In this document: in pieces, positions 10,369 through 16,061 of the stretch | Layout: the number at the start of each line of letters is the position of its first letter | Numbering within the stretch: the first letter of the stretch is position 1 | Program-made: the position numbers and the translations under genes | DNA from: Gemmatimonadales bacterium | Lineage (GTDB): Bacteria; Gemmatimonadota; Gemmatimonadetes; Gemmatimonadales; GWC2-71-9 | Direction: 5' to 3' | NCBI GenBank assembly: GCA_025937755.1 | Contig: JAICQR010000012.1 | Span: forward strand, 1-34,410 | Length of the DNA stretch: 34,410 bases | The notes under the pieces: generated by a model | Told to the model about the DNA's origin: nothing | The model's input: the letters and a program-made list of their open reading frames with translations, nothing else | Database searches by the model: none

Positions 10369-10399
10369 TTGACCCGAACGCTTAGATTGCAGGTACAAT
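10369..10399 (+). promoter_or_regulatory. Candidate sigma70-type promoter for metH
   Basis: TTGACC (10369-10374), 19-bp spacer, TACAAT (10394-10399); predicted start about 10405, at the 5' end of aptamer P1. Confidence 0.6.
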
Positions 10400-10404
10400 C
10401 GTTC

Positions 10405-10454
10405 CGTGGCGATTTGCGCTGCTTGCGGCCACGTTAAACAATCGCTAAAACGCG
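10405..10454 (+). ncRNA. SAM-II (SAM-alpha) riboswitch aptamer
   Basis: P1 CGTGGC/GCCACG (10405-10410/10428-10433); conserved blocks GATTT, TTGC, GTTAAA, GCTAAAA in SAM-II order; pseudoknot pairings GATT/AATC and TGCG/CGCG. Confidence 0.85.
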
Positions 10455-10456
10455 TC

Positions 10457-10488
10457 CGCTCGGGGCCGTTTTGGCACCGGGCGTTTTT
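10457..10488 (+). terminator. Intrinsic terminator between SAM-II aptamer and metH RBS
   Basis: CGCTCGG-g-GCC-gtttt-GGC-a-CCGGGCG followed immediately by TTTTT (10484-10488). Confidence 0.8.
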
Positions 10489-10500
10489 GCAGGAGTTCTG

Positions 10501-14213
<3,713 letters not shown>

Positions 14214-14217
<4 letters not shown>

Positions 14218-16061
14218 ACGACGGGCGGTCGGTCCGGTCGCTGCTCGTCGACGGGAAGGTGCACGTTGCTGACGGTGCGATGGGCACGATGCTCTATTCC
14301 CGGGGCGTGTTCCTCAATGTCTGCTACGACGAGCTGAATCTGCGGCAGCCCGACCTGGTGCGGGACATCCACGTCGAGTACCTCCGCGCCGGCGCCGACC
14401 TGCTGGAGACCAACACTTTCGGTGCCAACCCGATCAAGCTTGCCAGCCACGGTCTCGCGGACGACACCGAACGCATCAACACCGCGGCTGCCGGACTCGC
14501 GCGCGACGCCGCGGGGAACCGCGCTGCGGTCGCCGGCGCCATCGGACCCCTCGGTGTGCGGATCGAGCCCTTCGGCAGCCTCGGCGTGGATGAGGCCCGC
14601 GAGGCCTTTGCCCGGCAGGTCCGCGGCCTCCTGGCCGGCGGCGTCGACGGGTTCCTGCTGGAGACCTTCAGCGACGTGGGCGAGATCGGCGCGGCCATCG
14701 CCGCGGTCCGCGCTGAGTGTGGTCTCCCGATCATCGCCCAGATGACCATCGGCAACGATGGCCGGACCGCGTTCGGCACCGAGCCCGCCAGCTTCGGCCC
14801 CGAACTGGTGGCGCTCGGCGCGGATGCGGTCGGCGTCAACTGCAGCGTGGGGCCGCACGGCGTGCTGGAGGCGGTCGAGGCCCTGGCCCGGGTCGTCACC
14901 GTACCGATCTCCGCCCAGCCGAACGCCGGATTGCCTCGCGATGTGGGCGATCGCAAGATCTACATGGCCAGCCCCGAGTACATGGCAAGCTACGCCCGGC
15001 GCATGGTCGAAGCCGGGGCCCGCATCGTGGGCGGCTGCTGCGGGACGACGCCGGAGCACATTCGCGCCATCGTCGGGTTCGCCAAGAGCGCGTCCGTCCT
15101 GCAGGTCACCGCCACCGAAGCGCCGGCCAGCCTCCCGGCGGCACGCGAGCCGGTGCCCCTGGCCCAGCGCAGCCGGCTGGGTGAGCGCCTCGCCAGCGGC
15201 AGGTTTGTGTCCACGGTGGAGATCGTACCGCCCAAAGGCGTCGATCCCGAGCCAATGTACGCCCAGGTGCGCGCGCTCAAGGCCGCCGGGGTCGACGCGG
15301 TCAACGTGCCCGACGGCCCGCGGGCGCAGAGCCGCATGGGCGCGCTCCTGTCGGGACTCCTGATCCAGCGCGAGGTCGGCATCGAGGCTGTCGTGCACTA
15401 TTGCTGCCGCGATCGCAACCTGCTCGGCATGCTGTCGGATCTCCTGGGTGCAGCCGCCAGCGGCATCTCCAACCTGCTGCTCATCACCGGCGATCCGCCC
15501 AAGATGGGGCCCTATCCCGATGCAACCGCGGTCTTCGACATCGACTCGATTGGCCTCACCAACCTGGTGGCCCGGCTCAATCATGGGCTTGATCCCGGCG
15601 GCAACGACCTCGGCAGTGCTACCCGCTTCGTCGTCGGCGTCGGCGTCAACCCGGCTGCACCCGACTTCGAGCGCGAGTTGCGGCGGTTCGAGTGGAAAGT
15701 CGAGGCCGGCGCCGAGTATGCCATTACCCAGCCGGTGTTCGACCTCGAGCAGCTGGACCGGTTCCTGGCCCGCGCTGAGGGGTACGGGGTGCCGATCATC
15801 GCCGGCATCTGGCCCCTGGTGTCGCTGCGAAATGCCGAATTCCTTGCCAATGAGGTGCCGGGCATCACCGTGCCCGATGCCGTGCTCGCGCGGATGCGCC
15901 GCGCCAGTGCGGGTGGCAAGGAGGCCGCTCTGGCGGAGGGCGTCAGCATCGCGCGCGAGATGCTCACGGCGGTGCGCCAGCGGGTGCAGGGTGCCCAGGT
16001 CTCCGCCCCGCTGGGCCGGGTGCCGGTGGCGTTGGAGGTGCTGGACGGCGCCCTTGGTTGA
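14214..16061 (+). CDS. Bifunctional homocysteine S-methyltransferase / 5,10-methylenetetrahydrofolate reductase (YitJ-like)
   Basis: N-terminal Hcy-binding domain ([24 protein letters not shown]) fused to MTHFR-like domain ([14 protein letters not shown]..., [26 protein letters not shown]); GTGA overlap with metH. Confidence 0.92.

Follow-up and report, generated by a model that had tools for sequence, protein, structure and literature searches.

The leader of metH in this Gemmatimonadales genome carries an element that is, by family membership, a genuine SAM-II riboswitch and would accordingly be expected to bind SAM. It very probably acts in cis as an OFF switch of the operon encoding metH and a homocysteine S-methyltransferase/methylenetetrahydrofolate reductase (HMT/MTHFR) fusion, by transcription attenuation; that it binds SAM, that transcription terminates and in which direction it responds are predictions from the sequence.

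The window, i.e. the whole stretch of 34,410 nucleotides that was analysed, was searched against 4227 Rfam families. RF00521 (SAM-II) covered 10396-10465 on the forward strand with 45.0 bits (E = 3.6e-7; curated cut-off 36 bits), and none of the other families, including SAM-I (RF00162), SAH and SAM-SAH, reached its cut-off in the window. This search had been proposed in the initial annotation, and its result agrees with the SAM-II identity given there; the sequence, the coordinates, the 6-bp P1 and the order of the conserved blocks were likewise confirmed, the blocks lying in the correct order at 10405-10450 with GCTAAAA at 10444-10450 (+). In the genome as a whole (a 2.32 Mb draft, about 80% complete) the window element was the single RF00521 match, with an E value of 5.6e-9. 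The features of the locus are as follows.

10394-10399, forward strand: probable -10 box TACAAT, read from the sequence; ends 5 nt before P1
10405-10454, forward strand: SAM-II aptamer, within the RF00521 match 10396-10465
10405-10410, forward strand: P1 5' strand CGUGGC, six perfect pairs with 10428-10433
10411-10415, forward strand: L1 GAUUU (G8-U12 of 2QWY); U11 = 10414 contacts the SAM sulfonium (PMC3764141)
10417-10419, forward strand: P2a 5' strand CGC, pairs with GCG 10452-10454; canonical register, covariation in relatives
10423-10426, forward strand: P2b 5' strand UUGC (U20-C23); U21 = 10424 and G22 = 10425 are SAM contacts (PMC3764141)
10428-10433, forward strand: P1 3' strand GCCACG, from the sequence and the RF00521 match
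10434-10443, forward strand: L3 UUAAACAAUC, a conserved block including TTAAA 10434-10438; equivalent of the 2QWY A-minor loop L3
10444-10449, forward strand: P2b 3' strand GCUAAA (G42-A47); U44 = 10446 and A47 = 10449 are SAM contacts; doubles as the predicted antiterminator 5' strand
10444-10475, forward strand: predicted antiterminator hairpin, GCUAAAACG 10444-10452 with CGUUUUGGC 10467-10475 plus inner GUCC:GGGC, -17.3 kcal/mol
10457-10483, forward strand: predicted intrinsic terminator stem-loop, -17.1 kcal/mol
10484-10488, forward strand: U-tract UUUUU of the terminator, from the sequence
10491-10495, forward strand: metH Shine-Dalgarno AGGAG, from the sequence, outside aptamer and terminator
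10501-14217, forward strand: metH, cobalamin-dependent methionine synthase, GTG start, 1238 aa; NF007024 2045 bits, TIGR02082 1669 bits
14214-16061, forward strand: bifunctional homocysteine S-methyltransferase/methylenetetrahydrofolate reductase; NF006396 725 bits, PF02574 and PF02219

In the SAM-II crystal structure 2QWY, GAUUU forms loop L1 and makes major-groove triples with P2b, P2b consists of UUGC paired with GC(U)AA, and L3 packs on P1 (PMC3764141). Both elements of the H-type pseudoknot, P2a and P2b, are present in the window, P2b as UUGC 10423-10426 with GC(U)AA 10444-10448, while P2a is best drawn as CGC 10417-10419 / GCG 10452-10454. Comparison with 2QWY (PMC3764141) found the equivalents of the SAM contacts U11, U21, G22, U44 and A47 all intact. 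In the leaders collected from the phylum the U11 and U12 equivalents are T in 131/131 cases and the A47 equivalent is A in 127/131.

P2a is also supported by covariation: among relatives with the common loop length (loop-9), the first 5' and the last 3' position covary (MI 0.90; G-C in 34, C-G in 31), and 83% of these sequences pair at all three positions. Most relatives have a loop one nucleotide longer than that of the window; in the group with the window's loop length (loop-8), each of the 29 sequences pairs in one or other of two canonical P2a registers. Since P2b and most of P1 are nearly invariant in the 131 leaders, they provide no covariation evidence.

The initial annotation had drawn the pseudoknot otherwise. 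The proposed helix of GATT 10411-10414 with AATC 10440-10443 is contradicted by 2QWY, where the crystal data put GATT in L1 and AATC in L3; since L3 packs on P1, GATT/AATC is no helix of the SAM-II fold and was rejected. The other proposed helix, TGCG 10415-10418 with CGCG 10451-10454, is shifted from the crystal register, yet 76% of the loop-8 sequences fit it, and within this subgroup covariation does not separate it from CGC/GCG.

The aptamer lies upstream of metH on the same strand, and metH, with its complete set of MetH Pfam domains, overlaps the fusion gene by 4 nt. The placement of the riboswitch before metH and an HMT/MTHFR fusion, as originally annotated, is thus supported by TIGR02082, NF007024, NF006396 and Pfam. 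The function of this operon fits feedback by SAM, which counts in favour of SAM-II control. The nearest named relative of MetH (68%; the next ones 60-64%) comes from a Gemmatimonadales MAG that has its own SAM-II at the corresponding place before metH (46.2 bits); the similarity and the shared arrangement both support the earlier assignment of the DNA to Gemmatimonadota.

Transcription probably begins a little upstream of P1. Leaders of metH have an A-rich, ACAA-like element 12 to 8 nt upstream of P1, as counted without a shuffle control; a consensus promoter scanner proposed a different pair, TTGAGA 10361 / TAGATT 10388. Folding of the growing transcript gave two mutually exclusive hairpins of near-equal predicted stability, the predicted antiterminator overlapping both P2b/P2a and an arm of the terminator. 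When SAM is scarce, GCUAAAACG would be free to pair with CGUUUUGGC, the resulting hairpin would consume the terminator loop and the inner 3' arm, and RNA polymerase would read into metH. Abundant SAM would fix the H-type pseudoknot, in which P2b and the binding pocket hold GCUAAAA and P2a holds GCG. Since the antiterminator 5' strand carries U44, A47 and the 3' side of P2a, SAM binding should block the antiterminator; the terminator would then fold and transcription would stop at the U5 tract, ahead of the ribosome-binding site.

The terminator of the window was not called by a generic terminator scanner, and the fold of the whole leader has no unusual stability (z -0.57). Across the phylum, a terminator was found 3' of the aptamer in 60/67 metH-type leaders and was undetected in 7/67, against 11.6 in shuffles (maximum 15), a type of comparison that somewhat overstates significance because the relatives are not independent. 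Since the energy-based duplex test is weak in GC-rich shuffles, the antiterminator was assessed by the length of a helix anchored on GCUAA. In the metH-type leaders the anchored helix had a mean length of 6.00 bp versus 4.16 in shuffles (sd 0.17; maximum 4.43), and it reached at least 7 bp in 27 leaders versus 6.3 expected. Versions of 11 bp occur in L023, L031, L118 and L177, and in L192/L193 one side of the helix has changed to AAAG and the opposite side carries the matching CTTT. The antiterminator duplex of the window itself is only modestly above shuffles (p 0.035), and its support comes from the conservation of the predicted helix across metH leaders.

Leaders of other genes also have a terminator (58/62 versus 13.2 in shuffles, maximum 18). 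Their GCUAA-anchored helix is at background, 4.05 versus 3.90 bp, and a helix of at least 6 bp between the P2a 5' loop strand (GCCGC) and the terminator 5' arm is present in 46/62 of them versus 22.8 in shuffles (maximum 31). This suggests two antiterminator designs within one riboswitch class.

The same aptamer could act on translation, the SAM-stabilised P2 hiding the ribosome-binding site and the hairpin being incidental. Such SAM-II switches are known, as in S. meliloti metA (PMC9373788), and five HMT-MTHFR leaders among the relatives (L007, L009, L168, L171, L175) are without a terminator, their coding sequence beginning immediately downstream of the aptamer (L007, for instance, has GCTAAAACGCCAGGATG), which suggests that they are translational variants. 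In the window, however, P2 has no GAGG-type Shine-Dalgarno sequence, the AGGAG lies 37 nt beyond P2a and a terminator with its U5 tract stands between the two; a terminator is present in 52/54 metH leaders. Because the Shine-Dalgarno sequence is outside the aptamer, a translational mechanism is disfavoured here and we regard it as unlikely.

That the aptamer has a relaxed or altered ligand preference, e.g. for SAH or another metabolite of the methionine cycle, is very improbable. Specificity is not readable from sequence and the loop is shorter than usual, but U11, U21, U44 and A47, through which the aptamer recognises the sulfonium and the methionine end, are intact and no SAH or SAM-SAH family reached its cut-off. 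The loop length is presumably also that of the 2QWY RNA, which we counted against an altered ligand. A decayed or chance match without function is scarcely credible: the score is below that of many relatives (up to 61 bits), but the E value was obtained against all families, the position before metH is conserved in many genera, and terminator and antiterminator are conserved as well.

The window shares with RF00521 (SAM_alpha, metA element) P1, L1 GAUUU, UUGC, L3, GCUAAA, the P2 pseudoknot and the SAM contacts, with the published SAM-II members the site upstream of methionine biosynthesis genes, and with many of them the downstream terminator (PMC1273637, PMC2258182); terminator-type platforms were predicted to be common in the class (PMC1273637, PMC2258182). 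It differs in its host, the known ones being alphaproteobacteria, Bacteroides and other proteobacteria, in its target, which is metH instead of metA/metX/metY/metZ, and in having no Shine-Dalgarno sequence in P2, unlike the known SAM-II system. A close parallel is S. meliloti metZ, for which attenuation was predicted from structure and a riboswitch sRNA was also described (PMC9373788). In both leaders a Rho-independent terminator induced by SAM would precede the start codon; target gene and phylum differ.

RF00521 was present in 58/61 genomes belonging to the window's own family and order and in 112/160 genomes drawn from the phylum; in the order of the window SAM-II is near-universal and stands most often on metH. 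The 131 leaders were oriented and classified by downstream gene, and in this set, which was sampled by score and is not phylogenetically balanced, the first gene was metH in 54, threonine synthase in 14, HMT-MTHFR in 13, metY in 8, panB in 8, metF, homoserine dehydrogenase and an ATP-grasp ligase in 5 each, aspartate kinase and metX in 3 each, and a few others in the rest. NCBIfam confirmed PanB, ThrC, MetY, MetF, MetX, CysH and Hom as representative targets. Thus metH is the commonest target among these leaders, and the metH context of the window is the rule here. The initial annotation had called this context less typical, which holds against the alphaproteobacterial literature, where the targets are metY, metA, metX, metC and hom (PMC4239095), but not within the phylum. 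SAM-II was absent from 15 additional metH loci, which came from alpha-, beta- and gammaproteobacteria, Nitrospirota and other groups. No relevant report of SAM-II in Gemmatimonadetes, Gemmatimonadota or Gemmatimonas was found in a search that stopped short of subscription papers and the Rfam full member list.

The two SAM riboswitch classes are unevenly distributed in the phylum. Family f5 has SAM-I, mostly without SAM-II; the order of the window has SAM-II and almost no SAM-I, and no RF00162 match was found in the window's own genome. In genus g69 (family f7) SAM-I (RF00162) and SAM-II (RF00521) were both above cut-off in seven genomes (G075, G078, G084, G086, G090, G102, G169; loci L191-L193, L211-L216, L229), with SAM-I before metX, lysC (aspartate kinase) and metY and SAM-II before metH. 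A survey of 2007 had found no species with both (PMC2258182), and we found no later report of the two in one species, most subscription papers being outside the search. Outside the phylum, SAM-I occupies the same position in the metH leader of nine Bacteroidota loci (L056, L065, L075, L080, L082, L086, L096, L098, L108) and of a Rubrobacteraceae MAG (L061); the Bacteroidota S-box leaders share the site before metH and have an unrelated fold (RF00162). On balance we favour the view that Gemmatimonadota present a replacement series of SAM riboswitch classes, from SAM-I alone through both with a divided regulon to near-universal SAM-II, in which SAM-II would have been rewired into two antiterminator designs, using the GCUAAA strand at metH and the GCCGC P2a loop strand at most other targets.

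The phylum, the gene target and the split between SAM-I and SAM-II appear to be unreported in the searchable papers. The expression platform, metH as the main target in the phylum and the split are modest extensions of a known class. With them SAM-II, hitherto mostly alphaproteobacterial, becomes a main methionine regulator in Gemmatimonadota as well, its leading target there being metH, and the attenuation model of the metH leader is a concrete, testable prediction. Since there are genomes with SAM-I and SAM-II side by side, the replacement of one SAM riboswitch class by another is open to study.

Some further arrangements were seen. G102, G090 and G078 each have a divergent, back-to-back pair of SAM-I leaders. 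The panB leaders with SAM-II (L002, L112, L139, L142, L160, L170, L189, L203) precede a pantothenate gene (3-methyl-2-oxobutanoate hydroxymethyltransferase) that consumes methylene-tetrahydrofolate and is an unusual target of a SAM riboswitch. The protein encoded downstream of SAM-II in L135, L141, L159, L165 and L200 is ATP-grasp ligase-like (RimK-like, far below the family cut-off); no NCBIfam family was above cut-off for it, and its gene is a candidate for an unrecognised methionine-related gene. L002 and L159 (G049, contig C13, 14227-14302 on the reverse and 14510-14583 on the forward strand) form a pair of divergent SAM-II elements within about 350 bases, one facing panB and the other the ATP-grasp gene.
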